Source: Peptococcaceae bacterium
GTDB taxonomy: Bacteria > Bacillota > Peptococcia > DRI-13 > PHAD01
Reading direction: 5' to 3'
NCBI GenBank assembly: GCA_024655825.1
Contig: JANLFJ010000001.1
Location: 1-64,000, forward strand
Length of the DNA: 64,000 bases
In this document: one piece after another, positions 17,830-29,101 of the stretch
How positions within the stretch are numbered: the stretch's first letter is position 1
How the letters are laid out: every line of letters begins with the position of its first letter
Notes under the pieces: model-generated
What the model was told of the DNA's origin: nothing
The model's database searches: none
The model's input: the letters and a program-made list of their open reading frames with translations, nothing else
Program-made: the position numbers and the translations under genes

Positions 17830-18825
17830 CTACGCCCTTATTTCCTGGCGCATAAACACCGTGTAGGCAAAAGCGAAGCAAATCAGTGTTGCCGCCGCCA
17901 GGCCCACAAGATGAGGCCAGATCAGGAGCAAACTTTGGCCTATAGTGAGCGGGCCTTTGACCGCGCCAACAGTTTGTTCCAGCAGGACGGGCCCCAGTGT
18001 TCTTACGCCAGGATCCAGCAAGGTGGTGATTGCTTCATCATAAAGAGTGGACGGGGAAATCCGAGCGAGGGCCTGCTGCAGGTGTGCCTGCGCAAGAACC
18101 TGTTGAGTGCTTGAGGATTCCGTTACCGGATATATGCCTTCTGCCACCATACCGGCAAGAAGCCCCGCAAAAATAGCCAAAAACAACCAGGCAGCAACCC
18201 CGGCCAGGGCCGAGGTGGAGGTCTGCCTGAAAAGCACAGAAAAGAGAATGGACAGGGCCAGCCAGAAGGCGATATAGACAACGCTCAGCAGCATATAGAC
18301 GACAATTCGCAGCGCTTCTTCTACTGTGGGCGGAATGCCGATGAGGACCAGTCCCAGCCCTGCCACCAGGGCAACAAGCCCAAAGATAACGAGTGCTAAA
18401 ACCGCAACGCCGGCTGCAAACTTGCCGTTGATCACGGCATCCCTGTAAATGGGCTGGGAAAGGACCCTGCTCAAAGTACCGCGGTCTCTTTCCCCGTTTA
18501 TGGCATCAAAGCCCATGGTGATACCGACCAGCGGTCCTAAAAAGGAGACAAAAGATATGAAGGAAAAAGGAAGGGTGTCTCCGGAGGTGGTAAAAAGACG
18601 AAGGAATACGAAATCTATTTGGTTTTCGCCAACAGAAGAGCGAATAGTGCTGGCAGCAACATAAAGAGAGGCCAGGCAGGCAACTGTTATCAGGAGAGCC
18701 AGGATAAAAAACCGCTTCTGGCTAAGATGGTCGGCCATTTCTTTACGCGTGACAGCCAGCAAGCCCCTGTTAGCTTCTGAGACAGTCTTTAAATTAAAAG
18801 TGAATCGTTCAAATAGACTGTTCAT
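17830..18825 (-). CDS. ABC-2 type transporter permease
   Basis: A 331-residue permease with about six transmembrane segments (for example residues 40-60, 90-115, 145-165, 175-200, 215-240 and 300-325) and the ABC-2/NosY-like INGERDRGTLSRVLSQPIYRD motif region. It partners with the ATPase encoded just upstream; its ATG (18825, AAAGGAGGG site) overlaps the end of the ATPase gene by 17 bases, so the two are translationally coupled. The frame is open further upstream but that extension lies inside the ATPase gene. The substrate is unknown. Confidence 0.9.
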   Translation of the reverse strand: MNSLFERFTFNLKTVSEANRGLLAVTRKEMADHLSQKRFFILALLITVACLASLYVAASTIRSSVGENQIDFVFLRLFTTSGDTLPFSFISFVSFLGPLVGITMGFDAINGERDRGTLSRVLSQPIYRDAVINGKFAAGVAVLALVIFGLVALVAGLGLVLIGIPPTVEEALRIVVYMLLSVVYIAFWLALSILFSVLFRQTSTSALAGVAAWLFLAIFAGLLAGMVAEGIYPVTESSSTQQVLAQAHLQQALARISPSTLYDEAITTLLDPGVRTLGPVLLEQTVGAVKGPLTIGQSLLLIWPHLVGLAAATLICFAFAYTVFMRQEIRA

Positions 18826-19771
18826 AGTAGCCCTCCTTTTCAAAGTAACGGAGGTAAATGCTGTCCAGGGAAACACCGCGCATTTGAAGATGAAGCAGGG
18901 TATAGTTCGCGGCAACAAGGTTTTTCACGAGCGTGTCGCGGATGTCTTCCCGGCAAGATAAAAGATAAATATCTCCTTGCTTTTGCACATCCTCAACACC
19001 CTCAATTTCCCAGAAAAGCCGCGCTAATTCATCTCCCTCGGGTTCCGCCTTGATTTCGAACTGCATGGTACTGCCAGGCATTAGCTGGCTCCCCAGTTCT
19101 TCAATTGTCCCGCTTGCAATCAGCCTGCCCTTAACGAAAATCCCCACTTCGTCGCAGATTTGCTGGATCTGATGCAGCATATGGGAGGAGATTAAAACAG
19201 TCCTTCCATCGTCGACGCTCAGGTTCTTGATCAGCTTCAACAGCTCGCGAACACCCTCAGGGTCAATACCCAGGGTCGGTTCATCGAGAATTATTAATTT
19301 CGGGTCTTTCACTAAAAGGTCGGCAATCCCAAGTCTCTGCCGCATGCCCCTGGAATACTCGCCAACTTTTCTATGCCCCACCTCGGCAAGACCTACTCTC
19401 TCCAGGGCATAATTTATCCGCTTCCTTGATTCCTCAGGCGATATTCCATTAAGGGAAGTTGTATAAAAGAGATTCTCTACACCGGTCATTTCCTGGTAAA
19501 ATCCCACGTTATCGGGTAAATATCCAACTATTGATTTTACCTTGAGGGGATTGCGAGTGGCGTCATAGCCGGCGACCAGCGCCTGGCCAGAGGTGGGTTC
19601 AGTCAGTCCCAGCAGCATCAAGATGGTCGTCGTCTTGCCGGCCCCATTGGGTCCCAGAAGCCCGTATATTTTACCCTCCTCGATCCGGAGATTAAGGTGA
19701 TCGACGGCTGTTATTTCCCCGTATTTTTTGGTCAGGTCTCTTGTTTCTACCAGGATATTTCCTGTCATCAT
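18809..19771 (-). CDS. ABC transporter ATP-binding protein
   Basis: A 320-residue ABC ATPase of the CcmA/NatA-like drug or multi-substrate export group. Walker A is GPNGAGKTTT (about residues 39-48), the signature is YSRGMRQRLGIADLL, Walker B is LIILDEPTLGID and the switch His is in LISSHMLHQ. A C-terminal domain of ~90 residues follows. Start ATG 19771 (or 19768) is chosen since GGGAGG lies upstream; the longer open frame runs back into the NEW3 gene. It is the middle gene of a three-gene operon under a CIRCE-type operator. Confidence 0.92.
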   Translation of the reverse strand: MMTGNILVETRDLTKKYGEITAVDHLNLRIEEGKIYGLLGPNGAGKTTTILMLLGLTEPTSGQALVAGYDATRNPLKVKSIVGYLPDNVGFYQEMTGVENLFYTTSLNGISPEESRKRINYALERVGLAEVGHRKVGEYSRGMRQRLGIADLLVKDPKLIILDEPTLGIDPEGVRELLKLIKNLSVDDGRTVLISSHMLHQIQQICDEVGIFVKGRLIASGTIEELGSQLMPGSTMQFEIKAEPEGDELARLFWEIEGVEDVQKQGDIYLLSCREDIRDTLVKNLVAANYTLLHLQMRGVSLDSIYLRYFEKEGYYEQSI

Positions 19772-19776
19772 CAAGG

Positions 19777-20949
19777 CTATCGCCTCCCGTAGATTTGAAA
19801 GACCCTGTACACGCCGGCAATTACAATCAGGACAATGATCAGCCCGACGATACCCCAAAGGGTGGAAGTTCTCACGGTCACCCTCAGATCCGCTGTGCTG
19901 CTGGTTTCCCGGGTAGAGGCGGTGACGGAGACTACATAATCGCCGGCAATAGCCTTGCTGCTCGCTTTGATGAGGGCTGTGATCTGGCGGGACTCTCCGG
20001 GTTTAAGAGCATCAACCTTTTTCGGGTCAAAAGTCACGGCCCAATCAGGCGGCTGGTAAGAGGAAAAATTAATATCGTTTAAAACCGCGCCGCCTTTATT
20101 GCGGACGACAAGATTGACTTTTTCTTCTTTACCGGCCACAACCGACGCGTTCAGCCTTTCGGTCGGCGTGGTCAATTCCATTTTATAAGTGCCGCTGATA
20201 ATGATTTTCAAGTTTTCCGTGGCCTGGCTTACAGGACTGACAGCGCCGATCATGACGTTGTATTCGCCAGCCTCGGCGCTGACCGCCGGCGTGACTTTTA
20301 CGTCAAGGCCCACGGTCTCGCCTGGCTTTACATTGATGCTGGCCACCTGCTGGCTTTCATAAGAAGGCGTAAAAGCGACCTGCCAGCCGTCAGGCGCCCG
20401 CGCTCCCAGGCTATATGTCTGTTCGTTGCCGCCATTGTTTGTCAGGTTGACTTTAAAATTGAAGGTGGCGTCACTGGAACCTTTCAATTCCGCGTACTGG
20501 GCCTTCATTTCGTCTCCGCCCGACCTGGCGTCCGAAATAACTATCGTTAAGGCAATATTATCTCGGTATCCTGCGGCGCTTTCTGCCCTGACATTTATAA
20601 TATGCCGCCCGGCAGCGGCTGTTTCCGGGATATTGACTCTCAAATCCGTGGAACTTGAGGCATTTGGCTCCACATAGACCTGCTGAATCTCCCTGCCTTG
20701 CCCTCTGAACACGGCCGACCAGTCTTTAGGAAGCGAAACAATCTTCAGGTTAACAACCTGGCCGGAAGAGGTGTTGTTTTTGATCTCCAGAGGAAAGAAA
20801 ATGTTTTCCCCTGCCGCAGCGCTGATTCCCGGATACGTAGTAAAAATCTCAATGTTTGGCTCGCCTGCTGCATAACGGGCAGGCAGTAAAAGAACAAACG
20901 CAATGAAAACGCAAAAAACAACCATTTTTCTTGACATTCCAAGAAACAT
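19777..20949 (-). CDS. NEW3-domain (NPCBM-associated) membrane-anchored protein
   Basis: About 390 residues. A signal peptide (VVFCVFIAFVLLLPARYAAG) leads an extracytoplasmic region of three to four Ig-like NEW3-type repeats, recognised by repeats of the form GEN.F.PLEIKNNT and LKPGESRQITALIKA. A single C-terminal transmembrane helix (LWGIVGLIIVLIVIAGVY) and a short basic tail close the protein. COG1470-like proteins of this kind are often paired with ABC-2 exporters, as here. Start codon choice between GTG 20958 and ATG 20949 is open. Its role is unknown; it may bind substrate or stabilise the exporter outside the membrane. Confidence 0.85.
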   Translation of the reverse strand: MFLGMSRKMVVFCVFIAFVLLLPARYAAGEPNIEIFTTYPGISAAAGENIFFPLEIKNNTSSGQVVNLKIVSLPKDWSAVFRGQGREIQQVYVEPNASSSTDLRVNIPETAAAGRHIINVRAESAAGYRDNIALTIVISDARSGGDEMKAQYAELKGSSDATFNFKVNLTNNGGNEQTYSLGARAPDGWQVAFTPSYESQQVASINVKPGETVGLDVKVTPAVSAEAGEYNVMIGAVSPVSQATENLKIIISGTYKMELTTPTERLNASVVAGKEEKVNLVVRNKGGAVLNDINFSSYQPPDWAVTFDPKKVDALKPGESRQITALIKASSKAIAGDYVVSVTASTRETSSTADLRVTVRTSTLWGIVGLIIVLIVIAGVYRVFQIYGRR

Positions 20950-20995
20950 TTCTCTCACCCCGTTTTAAATCGATTTTTATTCTACCCGGCGGTTA

Positions 20996-21022
20996 TCAGC
21001 ACTCTGGTTGTTTGAGTGCTAA
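20996..21022 (-). promoter_or_regulatory. CIRCE-like HrcA operator
   Basis: On the minus strand TTAGCACTC, a 9-bp spacer, then GAGTGCTGA. This is the HrcA-binding CIRCE element (TTAGCACTC-N9-GAGTGCTAA) with 17 of 18 arm positions matching. It lies immediately downstream of the -10 of the operon promoter and 47 bases before the first start codon, the same placement as on groES and dnaK operons of Firmicutes. Confidence 0.85.
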
Positions 21023-21031
21023 GCCCAATAA

Positions 21032-21061
21032 TATTTAACACCATTGATAGTCTTTTTTCAA
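21032..21061 (-). promoter_or_regulatory. Promoter of the NEW3/ABC exporter operon
   Basis: Minus strand TTGAAA (21056-21061), 18 bp, then TAAATA (21032-21037). Initiation is expected near 21025, so the CIRCE element would be the first transcribed bases. Confidence 0.55.
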
Positions 21062-21097: not shown

Positions 21098-21646
21098 TTA
21101 CAATATTGAATGGTAAATGTACTGTTTCCCTCCCGAAGGCGCGGTTATTCTCGTCCTGTTTACCAACCCCAGGGACATCAGCACTTTTAAACGGTTGTTA
21201 ACCGCATGCACATTGGTGTTTAGCAGCCCGGCAAGTGTTGGGGTATCTGCAGATTTTAATTTTAACACATATTCAAGCGTTTTGGTTACCGGCTCGCTGC
21301 ACTTTCCAATTAAAGACCAGGTGTTTTTGCTTTCCAGCGCCAAGGCGCAGAGATCGGCCTTTTCCAGGGCAATGCTGATATTCTCTCTAACCAGCGGCGC
21401 CATATTCGAAAAAACAATATGTTTCCCGCTGAGTTCCTTGGAAAGCCGGGCTATTAAAACCGCGAAGGCTTCGGCGGCAAATGAAAAGTCTACAATATCA
21501 ATAGCCGTCAAATCAAGGTTCAAGGTTTCTCTCCCGCTGGCCATGAAGTGATCAAGGATCTGTTCCCTGATCCGTTTGGCTTTTTCTCTTCCCCACAGTT
21601 TCTTTTCTCCATACTTTATCAAACTGAATGTATAAATATTATCCAC
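21098..21646 (-). CDS. STAS-like (DUF4325-type) plus winged-helix protein
   Basis: 182 residues, cytoplasmic. The first ~115 residues resemble STAS-like DUF4325 proteins: GREKAKRIREQIL, then a LDLTAIDIVDFSFAAEAFAVLI strand-helix unit and HIVFSNMAPLVRENISIAL. The last ~60 residues look like a winged helix (TPTLAGLLNTNVHAVNNRLKVLMSLGLVNRTR and a basic wing). It may be a DNA-binding regulator whose N-terminal domain senses a partner. The start is probably GTG 21646 behind a purine-rich AGGGAGG site. It has no obvious operon partner. Confidence 0.65.
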   Translation of the reverse strand: MDNIYTFSLIKYGEKKLWGREKAKRIREQILDHFMASGRETLNLDLTAIDIVDFSFAAEAFAVLIARLSKELSGKHIVFSNMAPLVRENISIALEKADLCALALESKNTWSLIGKCSEPVTKTLEYVLKLKSADTPTLAGLLNTNVHAVNNRLKVLMSLGLVNRTRITAPSGGKQYIYHSIL

Positions 21647-23944: not shown

Positions 23945-25006
23945 TTACTTTTCTGCGGAGGCCGCCTTGGCAGAATCATTTACTGTACCAGGCGTGCTAA
24001 AGGCTTTTTTCTTAAAAAGGTTGTTGGCCAACTTGAGGTAGCCGTGGACATTGGCGAATTGGGGATTCTTGGCCAGGGTCGCCTGCGGAAATTTGGGCAA
24101 GAAGTATTCTGAAATCGCTTTTCCTCCGCCGCCGGTCAGCAGAATAATGTCCAACTGTCTTTTATCCCAGATAGAATTTACCTCTGTGGCAATTTTTTCC
24201 GCCAGCTGTCTGAAGGCTTCTTTGTTGATATCGCTGATGTCTTTAGGAACACCTTCAATTCGCAGGGTGTCAGTCTCCAATATTTTAAGCTCATACATTG
24301 CCCTTTCCACTTTAAATTTTTCTTTTATCTTATCCGCAATCATGCCATAGGCGGTACTCATAGCTATTTCGCAGGAAATACTTTGTTTTCCAACAAACTC
24401 AAGGTCGTCGGCAAATGCTAAATCTGTTGTTTTATATCCCACATCCACTATGCCGATTTTTAAATGCGACAAATCATTTTCTAAAATTGTTCCATCCTGA
24501 TCCAACCGGCGGTCATAGAGTGTGCCAAAGGGCTGCGGAATCAGCTGTATTTTTTCAATGGTGATATTTAATGGAACATCTTCGTTAAAACCGCCAAAAC
24601 GGACGGCATGGTTCCCCTGCATAAGACGGGACCAGTCATCCTTATAAAGTTGGTAATAATCTACCGGCAGTCCGGCAACGACATTGAATTTTTGTTCGCC
24701 CTTATCCATGAAAAGCGCCAGGCTGGTAAGAAGCAGAACTTTCGCATTTATGTCTTCCAACCTGTTTCTACCAAGTGAACGGGAAACAATAGGGCTTTGC
24801 CGGATGGCCAGATCTCCGACAAAAAACTTCTTGTTATCCACAGTCACAACCAAGTTGTCGGTGATGTTTTTGGGATTGAGCAAAAGTGAATTGAATTTCA
24901 AGTCTGTACCCAAGCCAACAGTGCTCGGAAAGATATGTTCTTTTGTACCGTCCGTAACTTTGACATAACCGTAACCGAGATCAACTCCAATTTGCTTGTA
25001 GAACAA
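23945..25006 (-). CDS. ParM/StbA-like actin-family ATPase, chromosomal orphan
   Basis: A 353-residue actin-like protein. Phosphate-1 motif IGVDLGYGYVKV (residues 6-17), the connect and phosphate-2 region IGIVDVGYKTTDLAF (about 187-201) and the adenosine motif ILLTGGGGKAISEYF (about 286-300) are visible. Such proteins polymerise to separate plasmids or to move other cargo. No ParR-like partner gene lies beside it, so its role here is unclear. The start is TTG 25006 after AGGGGGTAGG. A possible control or centromere-like site is the AT-rich inverted repeat ATAATTA/TAATTAT at about 25132-25153. Confidence 0.82.
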   Translation of the reverse strand: MFYKQIGVDLGYGYVKVTDGTKEHIFPSTVGLGTDLKFNSLLLNPKNITDNLVVTVDNKKFFVGDLAIRQSPIVSRSLGRNRLEDINAKVLLLTSLALFMDKGEQKFNVVAGLPVDYYQLYKDDWSRLMQGNHAVRFGGFNEDVPLNITIEKIQLIPQPFGTLYDRRLDQDGTILENDLSHLKIGIVDVGYKTTDLAFADDLEFVGKQSISCEIAMSTAYGMIADKIKEKFKVERAMYELKILETDTLRIEGVPKDISDINKEAFRQLAEKIATEVNSIWDKRQLDIILLTGGGGKAISEYFLPKFPQATLAKNPQFANVHGYLKLANNLFKKKAFSTPGTVNDSAKAASAEK

Positions 25007-25529: not shown

Positions 25530-26772
25530 CTAGGGACCTGCCTTCTTATTGGGTATTACCGCAAAGAATACCGGGGGTTCCGGCACGCCAAGGGCTTTAA
25601 AGACTTGCTTCTGCTGAACTGTCGTTTCTGTCCGCTGCAGCACCTTACCGTCAGGTCCTACAAACTCTCCCAAGTGCATCCGCTCCAGTATTTTTCTTAA
25701 GCTTCGCGCAGTTGTTTGTAGCCCAGGGCCACGTCTTCCGCCGAGAGGGTGTCGTCAGAGGTTCTTAACAGGTACTTGCCGTCCAGTTTTTCTTCCGCTT
25801 TTACCTTGGCCTTGTTGATGTAAGGTTGCCCTTTTTTGTCGGTTTTCAGGTACTTACCGTATGTCTTATGGGCGATCAGTTCGCAGCAGGCTTTGGTATG
25901 GGGTTCGCCTTGCAAATCACCGATGGCTGCCAGTTCTTCTCTGAGCTTTGCCAGTGTGTTTTCCCGCTGAGCCTTGTCTTTTGCAGCCTCTTGGGGGTTG
26001 CGTACCAGGATGTATCTGACGCGCTTTCCACCGTCGCCGACGATGATCTCTTTTACTTCCAGGTTGTCCTTGATGGTCTTGTATCTCCCGGCACGGTTAA
26101 GGGCTTCTTCCACGCTTTCCTTGCCGTTGCGCATCTTTTCTCCGGCAATGTAGTGCCAGCCCCCGCGCTGCAGGTACTTGAGGTTCTCTTCCGAGGAGAA
26201 GCCCCGGTCCACTACGGTGATCACCCGACCCAGTTTCCAGCCCATGAGGTCTGTTTTAACCTCTTCCACCACCGACATGTCGGATGTATTGCCGGGCCAT
26301 ACCCAGCACCTGACGGGAATCCCCTCCCGGGTGACGGCTAAACCTATCACTACCTGGGGAAGGTCCGGCCGATGGTCTTTAGTGTGACCTTTTTGGCGCA
26401 GGTATTTCTTTTGATTTTCCGGGTCATCCTCGTCGGTTTCAAAATAGGTGGAGGTGGTATCGAAATAGAGAAGGTCCACTTCCAGGTTCAAGAGATTGGC
26501 AACAGAAAAGAATACCTCTTCTTGCAGTTGTTCTGAAGCCTCCAGTAAAAAGTCCATGGCCCGGTAAAGATTTTGGACCGGCACTTCGGGCAATTCGGGG
26601 ATATGGACATCCTCTCGCACCCAATCTTCGCATGCCAGCTTGCTGGCGGGGTTTAGCGCCCGATTAGCCACCATGGCAAAAATGGCCCGTTCTACAGGCA
26701 CTTGGTACTTGCGTTTTACCAGCATTCGTTCCAAGGCACTCCGTATCCCTATTTCATTCCAGAGGAGGATTT
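25530..26772 (-). pseudogene. IS1634-family transposase relic
   Basis: The main open part (25697-26734) encodes a DDE transposase middle region: LDLLYFDTTSTYFE-like first Asp segment (VDLLYFDTTSTYFE), VVDRGFSSEEN second Asp segment, and KYLLRTSD with LSAEDVALGYKQL near the catalytic Glu region. It lacks the N-terminus, since the frame meets a stop at the integrase junction. After GYKQL it goes out of frame, and the family C-terminus reappears in another frame at about 25530-25690 (ILERMHLGEFVGPDGKVLQRTE ... ALGVPEPP). About 100 residues, including the likely catalytic Glu, are missing. It is therefore inactive. A GCGCAAC/GTTGCGC hairpin at 25475-25493 may be its terminator. Confidence 0.82.
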
Positions 26773-26775
26773 TAT

Positions 26776-27936
26776 ATGGTCACAGGGAGCCTGCAGGAGC
26801 GCAACGGCAAATATACCGCCGTACTCAACCTATATGAAAACGGCAGAAGAAAGCAAAAATCCATTGCGCTTGGCATCCCGGTCAAGGGTAAGAAACGCAA
26901 GGCGCTGGAGATGCTGGAGGAATTGAAACGCCTGTACAGCAGCCAGGGGATAAAGGATTTGCAGATACTGTTTGCCGATTTTCTGAAGGATTGGCTGAAA
27001 ATCACAGCGCCCACTATCGAACGGACGACGTATCAAAGTTATGAAAGCATGATTGATGCGAGGCTGGACGGCTTCTTCCGCATGCTGGGCGTGACGCTGG
27101 CACAGGTGGAACCGTCACATATCCGTGCACTGCACGATTCAATTTTCAAGGACGGCTGCAATGCCAATACGGTCATTCACTATCATGCCATCGTCAGGAA
27201 AGCGCTGCAATACGCTGTGAAAAACGAGCTAATTCCGAAAAATCCGGCTGACATGGTGGACCGCCCGAAGATTGGGAAGTACGTTGCGGAGTATTACAAT
27301 GAGGACGAGTTGGCGGCACTCTTTGAAGCGACACAGAGGGATTCCATAGCGGTGGTCATCCAGCTTGCCGCCTATTACGGCCTGCGGCACAGCGAGGTAC
27401 TGGGTATTCGCTGGAGTGCCATTGATTTTCAACGAGGCACCATCTCCATAAACCATAAAGTAACAGAAGGCAAAGCCGAGGGACAAAAGGTGATTTACAC
27501 AGAGGACAAGCTGAAAACAAAATCCAGCTTCCGCACGCTGCCGCTGATTCCGGAGGTGCGGGCGCTTCTTTTGCAGACAAAAGAGAGGCAGGAGTATCAC
27601 CGAAGGTTGTTTAAGAAAAGCTATGATAATACCTACACCGACTATGTCTGCGTAGACGAAATGGGCAAGCTTTTTTGCCCTAATTACATTACCGATCATT
27701 TCGGGTATCTTTTGAAGCGGTATCAATTCAGAAAAATCCGCTTTCATGATTTGCGCCACTCCTGCGCCAGTTTGCTTTTAGCGCATGGCATCCCCATGAA
27801 ATCTATTCAGGAGTGGCTTGGCCATTCCACTTTCGCAACCACGGCGGATACCTATTCGCACCTGGATTTCAGCATTAAAGAACTGCCCGGAAAAGCTTTC
27901 ATTGGAGCAGTTCCGGGCAGTAGCACATATCAGTAA
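26776..27936 (+). CDS. Tyrosine recombinase (Tn916-like integrase)
   Basis: A 386-residue site-specific recombinase. It has an N-terminal arm-binding region (GSLQERNGKYTAVLNL), a SAM-like core-binding region (FADFLKDWLKITAPTIERTTYQSY) and a catalytic domain with R in YGLRHSEVLGIRW, HDLRHSCASLL, LGHSTFATTADTY, giving the R-K-H-R-H-Y set. Its AGAGGAGG ribosome site lies in DNA that also encodes the transposase relic on the other strand, so the junction is close to the start codon. The last ~16 residues read through the start of the next gene out of frame, suggesting a deletion truncated the natural C-terminus. Confidence 0.88.
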   Translation: MVTGSLQERNGKYTAVLNLYENGRRKQKSIALGIPVKGKKRKALEMLEELKRLYSSQGIKDLQILFADFLKDWLKITAPTIERTTYQSYESMIDARLDGFFRMLGVTLAQVEPSHIRALHDSIFKDGCNANTVIHYHAIVRKALQYAVKNELIPKNPADMVDRPKIGKYVAEYYNEDELAALFEATQRDSIAVVIQLAAYYGLRHSEVLGIRWSAIDFQRGTISINHKVTEGKAEGQKVIYTEDKLKTKSSFRTLPLIPEVRALLLQTKERQEYHRRLFKKSYDNTYTDYVCVDEMGKLFCPNYITDHFGYLLKRYQFRKIRFHDLRHSCASLLLAHGIPMKSIQEWLGHSTFATTADTYSHLDFSIKELPGKAFIGAVPGSSTYQ

Positions 27937-28464: not shown

Positions 28465-28812
28465 TCAAGCACCCAATATCTTTTTGCAGTAAGCCTTCAG
28501 CACCGGAATATCAGTCGTTATAGTGTCCCACACATCAGGAATGCTGATGCTTCCGTAAGCGTGTGCGGCAACATTGCGCATCCCCTTTATGCTTCTCCAC
28601 GGGACATCAGGATGAGCCGCTGTAAACTCTGGTGACAGGCGGCCGGCCAGCTCTCCAATCTGAAGGATGCACATGGTGGCAGCATTGCGGTAAATCTTAT
28701 CCGTTTCAAAGCTTTCAAAGGTATCGCCAAAACGTGTAACAGTCTGCTCGATCTCAGTGCAGTATGCAAGGATATGCTTTATGATGCCCAAATCCTTCTT
28801 AGCTTTATCCAT
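28465..28812 (-). CDS. hepT: HepT-like HEPN toxin (DUF86)
   Basis: A 115-residue HEPN-domain protein with the catalytic RNase motif RNVAAHAY (R-x4-H-x-Y) near residue 79. ILQIGELAGRLSPEF is the usual central helix. It is the toxin partner of the MntA-like nucleotidyltransferase encoded just upstream, whose gene overlaps this one by 8 bases. In characterised pairs the antitoxin adenylylates the Tyr of this motif. ATG 28812 with a GAGGAGGTG site is preferred over a longer frame to 28857. Confidence 0.87.
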   Translation of the reverse strand: MDKAKKDLGIIKHILAYCTEIEQTVTRFGDTFESFETDKIYRNAATMCILQIGELAGRLSPEFTAAHPDVPWRSIKGMRNVAAHAYGSISIPDVWDTITTDIPVLKAYCKKILGA

Positions 28813-29101
28813 AAATCTGCACCTCCTCGGATGCGATTTCCTTCCTGAAAGCTTCATCCAGACTGTCGGTGGTGAGCAAATCTACAGGTACGCCGAAGGC
28901 TTCTTCGAGATCAGCATACAGCCCGCCGAGGGCAAACAGTCCACGGATGCGCCCTTTGTCAATGCGAAAATCCAAATCGCTGCCCGGTTTGGCATCCCCT
29001 CTGGCGTAAGAGCCAAAAAGGAACATCCGCTCCACGCCGTGGCGCTTTGCAATTTCACCGGCGATGTTTTTGATTTCATCAACAGTATAAATTCTTTCCA
29101 T
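28805..29101 (-). CDS. mntA: MntA-like minimal nucleotidyltransferase antitoxin
   Basis: A 98-residue minimal nucleotidyltransferase. FGSYARGDAKPGSDLDFRID holds the GS-x10-DxD motif (about residues 30-44) that binds the nucleotide and metal ions. It probably adenylylates and silences the HepT toxin. ATG 29101 follows an AAGGGAAACATTC stretch with a weak ribosome site. The pair is located 80 bases from an intact tRNA-Ser, inside the mobile region. Confidence 0.87.
   Translation of the reverse strand: MERIYTVDEIKNIAGEIAKRHGVERMFLFGSYARGDAKPGSDLDFRIDKGRIRGLFALGGLYADLEEAFGVPVDLLTTDSLDEAFRKEIASEEVQIYG

Follow-up and report, generated by a model that had tools for sequence, protein, structure and literature searches.

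The class I heat-shock regulon comprises the groESL and hrcA-grpE-dnaK-dnaJ operons, which are controlled by HrcA through the CIRCE operator. Control of HrcA by GroESL titration is established in Bacillus subtilis and other bacteria. Modulation of HrcA by GroE has been described (PMC6032397; PMC8045354). Non-chaperone targets are also on record: ChIP-seq in Waddlia chondrophila placed HrcA sites ahead of non-chaperone genes (PMC4989314), rpoH is such a target in Geobacter sulfurreducens (PMC545781), and in Lactobacillus plantarum non-chaperone HrcA genes were predicted, most of which changed little upon deletion of hrcA (PMC3842655). The locus analysed here lies in a window of 64,000 nucleotides from a Peptococcaceae bacterium. 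It shares with the class I regulon the operator sequence, the spacer, the position close to the transcription start and a single hrcA. However, its target is a predicted membrane exporter operon and not a chaperone, a protease or their regulator, and in having an HrcA site before non-chaperone genes it resembles the extended regulons. An HrcA-controlled NEW3/ABC-2 exporter was not found in the mostly open-access literature searched.

The exporter has described relatives as well. NosDFY combines an ATPase and the NosY permease with an extracytoplasmic partner, as the window operon does, but in the window this partner belongs to the NEW3/Ig-like family. Exporters of the DrrAB/GldA type likewise consist of an ATPase and an ABC-2 permease, but the ATPase of the window stays below the curated cut-offs of both families (DrrA, its best NCBIfam match, 252 of 312 bits; GldA, 223 of 403 bits). 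We consider the window element, with a probability of about 0.85, to be a genuine HrcA operator that would place the NEW3/ABC-ATPase/ABC-2-permease operon under class I heat-shock control.

The element, its promoter and the operon behind it

An original prediction, made from the letters of the window, had placed a CIRCE element matching at 17 of 18 positions within 20949-21061, and we find it there as a palindrome on the minus strand (20996-21022; TTAGCACTC-AAACAACCA-GAGTGCTGA, in general form TTAGCACTC-N9-GAGTGCTGA). As CIRCE we accepted TTAGCACTC-N9-GAGTGCTAA with no more than about two changes; the window element, in full TTAGCACTCAAACAACCAGAGTGCTGA, departs from this only by an A to G change at position 26 and has a spacer of exactly 9. 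RNA folding indicates that its arms could pair to a 9-bp hairpin close to the 5' end of the mRNA. Read along the minus strand, the region runs cccTTGAAA-aaagactatcaatggtgt-TAAATA-ttattgggc-TTAGCACTC-aaacaacca-GAGTGCTGA-...-GGGGTGAGagaa-ATG. The candidate promoter is sigma-70-like: its -35 box TTGAAA (21056-21061, minus strand) is followed after 18 nt by the candidate -10 box TAAATA (21032-21037, minus strand), for which TTAAAT (21033-21038, spacer 17 nt) is an alternative. CIRCE begins 9-10 nt after the -10 box and about 2-3 nt past a typical, predicted transcription start, in agreement with the roughly 3 bases proposed originally. The claim of a chaperone-like promoter geometry held for the layout, for the offset between promoter and CIRCE, which lies inside the range seen at chaperone-linked sites, and for the looser score, whose value lies between the extremes recorded for bona fide CIRCE promoters of relatives and is reached by 2.7% of 60-nt stretches drawn at random from the window. 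It did not extend to the strict consensus scan, in which the TTGAAA/TAAATA promoter is absent from the output. That such a site should arise by chance had been called unlikely, and the numbers bear this out: with up to three mismatches allowed, the window holds one match against 0.01 expected, and a simple calculation for up to one mismatch (55 x 3.16e6 / 4^18) gives 0.0025 per genome.

CIRCE sits in an intergenic gap of 148 bp. The nearest upstream gene (21098-21646) is co-directional and ends at 21098, ahead of the promoter, and thus the operon from 20949 to 17830 is the only plausible target. Its first gene (19777-20949, minus strand) encodes a NEW3/Ig-like protein of 390 aa, assigned by Pfam NPCBM_assoc/NEW3 (9.6e-34, in three stretches) and by orthologue alignment. 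Translation probably starts at ATG 20949, about 46-47 nt from CIRCE, where the Shine-Dalgarno-like GGGGTGAG (20954-20961, minus strand, read from the sequence) precedes the codon. A signal-peptide-like hydrophobic N-terminus and a C-terminal hydrophobic stretch predict that the protein is membrane-anchored and extracytoplasmic; no solved relative was found by sequence. The ABC ATPase follows (18809-19771, minus strand; Pfam ABC_tran 1.9e-31; Walker A GPNGAGKTT, signature SRGMRQRLG, Walker B LIILDEP). Its nearest solved chains are ABCA4/ABCA1, which are ABCA phospholipid transporters, and NosF. The third gene (17830-18825, minus strand; Pfam ABC2_membrane_2 1.2e-34) encodes a NosY-like ABC-2 type permease and overlaps the end of the ATPase gene by 17 nt. 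With PF00005 and PF12679 both above cut-off in one operon, we class the product as a predicted ABC-2 exporter. None of the three proteins is a chaperone or a protease, unlike typical members of the class I regulon.

The gene that adjoins the operon upstream (21098-21646, minus strand) encodes a STAS-like DUF4325 protein with a winged-helix-like C-terminal part. A search for its homologues in 59 relatives, made for synteny, gave no clear one. Farther away, translations alone suggest an Actin/ParM-like ATPase (23945-25006, minus strand), a transposase (25697-26734, minus strand), a tyrosine-type integrase (26776-27936, plus strand) and a HEPN/nucleotidyltransferase pair (28465-29101, minus strand). 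Lying together, these genes likely form an integrated or mobile stretch of DNA not far from the operon.

CIRCE sites in the window genome and its relatives

The genome to which the window belongs has 3.16 Mb in 98 contigs and is 99.5% complete. An hrcA gene, on whose presence the original prediction depended, occurs once and at full length (TIGR00331, 355 bits, well above the curated cut-off of 197). The genome-wide search that had been proposed returned four CIRCE sites with at most two mismatches, and the reversed pattern returned none. Apart from the window site all are perfect and stand at chaperone operons, one ahead of hrcA, a group III (thermosome-like) chaperonin, grpE, dnaK and dnaJ, the other two ahead of two groESL operons. 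In all four, the promoter is followed after 9-13 nt by CIRCE and then by the ribosome-binding site and the start. The window promoter itself has no detectable likeness to the chaperone promoters of its own genome. A further match with three mismatches (G000:C24:25074) was dismissed, as it falls within a long reading frame.

The thermosome-like chaperonin between hrcA and grpE (G000:C7; L007:1828-8152) is an observation in its own right. Since this arrangement is frequent in relatives, an archaeal-type chaperonin would be under CIRCE control there.

How specific such a site is can be judged from 59 relatives (about 144 Mb by rounded sizes), in which most CIRCE sites with at most two mismatches were classified; incompletely listed sites of some genomes were omitted. 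Among the sites listed, 129 of 131 distinct ones with at most one mismatch, a count that includes the three perfect sites of the window genome, have chaperone genes downstream (hrcA operon, groESL, htpG or hsp20). Therefore, a near-perfect CIRCE in this phylum appears almost always to mark a heat-shock promoter. The original statement that CIRCE is confined to groESL and hrcA-grpE-dnaK has to be corrected, as htpG is a routine target in the phylum and hsp20 and clpB are occasional ones. The two non-chaperone sites are L057 in genome G001 and L061 in genome G002. The former (L057:2464-2490; G001:C47:11163-11189) comes from the family of the window genome. It is a perfect orphan CIRCE with a good promoter on the minus strand (TTGACA-17-TAAAAT), and is followed by a terminator-like hairpin and an ORF of 37 codons (MGDKNPNKLKKKKKP...).

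In the window genome htpG, a common CIRCE target in relatives, was not found with PF00183. We considered whether the operon had captured the promoter of a lost htpG, and this idea is not supported: the window promoter is unlike the htpG promoter of G001, the upstream neighbour of the operon was not found beside htpG elsewhere, and one genome, G129, keeps both htpG and a CIRCE-preceded NEW3 operon.

The NEW3 orthologues and the remnants in a third genome

The genus of the window genome is represented by this genome alone among those compared. In a first pass, NEW3 orthologues from the same class and from named MAGs (42-65% identical) had no CIRCE, an absence that, taken alone, would weaken the regulon claim. 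Across the phylum the NEW3 operon is carried by 43 of 398 genomes, the window genome counted. We scored 48 upstream regions, including that of the window; a few of them stand for one genome obtained through two collections. CIRCE is absent from 46, where the best matches have 6-9 mismatches like random sequence, and the closest orthologues (60-65% identical) belong to this group. The link between CIRCE and the exporter is thus lineage-specific.

The remaining region belongs to G129, a genome of another class. Its NEW3 orthologue is 54% identical and has a CIRCE 41 nt before the start (TTAGCACTC-ACCTGTGCA-AAGTGCTAA), with one mismatch, as many as in the window, in the context TTGAAA-16-TATAAT-aataa-CIRCE-...AAGGAGGG-ATG. 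The other three CIRCE sites of G129 precede hrcA, htpG and groESL. About 2e-5 such matches would be expected by chance when 47 upstream regions, each of about 500 nt, are examined; the figure rises to about 3e-4 if the two non-chaperone sites in the roughly 144 Mb of relatives are both treated as false. In the maximum likelihood tree of the NEW3 protein, the window and G129 genes fall within one well-supported clade of ten members but not together. In all bootstrap trees G129 stands apart from the window gene and two changes are needed, which means either two gains or one gain with several losses.

A third case comes from G002, a genome of the same order and a different family. Its orphan perfect CIRCE (L061) stands ahead of a leader of about 120 nt, followed by a decayed NEW3 signal-peptide fragment, ATGATGTTTACAAAAGTTCGGAAGATCTCCCAGAAAAAATGGGTGTATGTGGTCAGTACTC. 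Part of this stretch is found again 10 kb away (44/49), where it continues into a stretch matching NEW3 residues 19-63 (51%), with ATPase residues 138-186 (71%) behind it. Immediately before this second copy lies AGTGCTAATAAAATA, a CIRCE arm with its flank, identical to the orphan site at 15 of 15 positions. Both loci are what is left of a disrupted NEW3 operon with a CIRCE of its own. The expected conservation of the site in orthologues is borne out in part, by the intact G129 site and the decayed G002 remnants, but not by the 46 regions that lack it. Over 100 positions that take in CIRCE, the G002 orphan promoter and the groESL promoter of the same genome agree at 72. With CIRCE removed from the score, the two are by far the best heterologous promoter pair and tie with true orthologous groESL pairs. 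The simplest reading suggests that a groESL promoter was copied ahead of the NEW3 operon in G002, and thus that recruitment proceeded there by promoter duplication. The NEW3 promoters of the window, G129 and G002, compared for shared ancestry, show unremarkable pairwise likeness scores. The remnants lie about 10 kb apart (G002:C1:2165457-2175772), and their shared signal-peptide DNA suggests that they were duplicated before decay.

Alternative readings, a putative mechanism and CIRCE-free leaders

That the palindrome arose by chance and has no function is very improbable. Its single mismatch is all that speaks for it, against an expectation of 0.0025 per genome that its position lowers further, the empty scan with the reversed pattern, and the recurrence before the G129 orthologue. 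Also improbable, if somewhat less so, is a former operator that is losing its function while most transcription of the operon comes from a different promoter. In its favour are the weak match of the promoter to the strict consensus and the changed position 26, which is A at 132 of 134 chaperone-linked sites. However, the A to G change does occur at the other two of these sites, the element is otherwise intact in both arms and the spacer, one or two mismatches are nothing unusual at groESL sites (7 of 54), and Mycoplasma gallisepticum tolerates up to two changes in a functional CIRCE (PMC5138195).

The other alternative accepts a real HrcA operator, and so is a sub-case of the operator reading that differs in purpose alone: the site would have arrived with a duplicated groESL-type promoter, and heat control of the exporter would have no adaptive meaning. 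The G002 promoter with its likeness to a groESL copy, the decay of the G002 operon and the many orthologues that manage without CIRCE all fit this idea, which we regard as possible but doubtful. Against it stand the pairing of CIRCE with NEW3 in lineages that do not group in the NEW3 tree, the nearly intact CIRCE in the window and in G129, and the window promoter that resembles no chaperone promoter of its genome. Whether heat control is adaptive rather than incidental we put at about even, or somewhat in favour of adaptive. Since the site is real, the pairing recurs in a distant second genome and a third retains a relic, the exporter very probably takes part in the heat-shock response.

This reading of a functional HrcA operator has its basis in the site, its geometry, the hrcA gene, the regulon and the independent co-occurrences. 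From these we infer repression by HrcA, heat induction and release through GroESL titration at the exporter operon. GroESL would keep HrcA active, and HrcA bound to CIRCE just downstream of the promoter would block transcription of the operon. Unfolded proteins would titrate GroESL, HrcA would be lost from CIRCE, and the exporter would be made alongside GroESL and DnaK. The operator would have been recruited in some lineages only. The exporter may respond to envelope stress and might then aid the envelope under such conditions. A tentative extension is that HrcA repeatedly and independently recruited this exporter, which would serve the class I heat-shock response at the envelope and handle a harmful product of protein or membrane damage. 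If true, a non-chaperone target at an orthologous operon, in two lineages and as a relic, would mean that an export function joins class I heat shock, and heat control would be the first clue to the role of this uncharacterised NEW3/ABC-2 exporter. G002 would likewise be an example in which the expansion of a regulon through a copied groESL promoter can still be read from the sequence.

Some CIRCE-free NEW3 leaders have features of their own. Those of G029 (L042), G033 (L043) and G031 (L055) look like transcription attenuators, in which a far-upstream GGTTTAGGC can pair with GCCTAAACC, and the latter overlaps a T-run terminator before the NEW3 start; nothing in Rfam matched the NEW3 leaders. 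G033 also has an hsp20 gene about 1.5 kb upstream of its NEW3 operon (L051:844-1415; G033:C23), and a CIRCE-like palindrome with two mismatches is located past the 3' end of hsp20.
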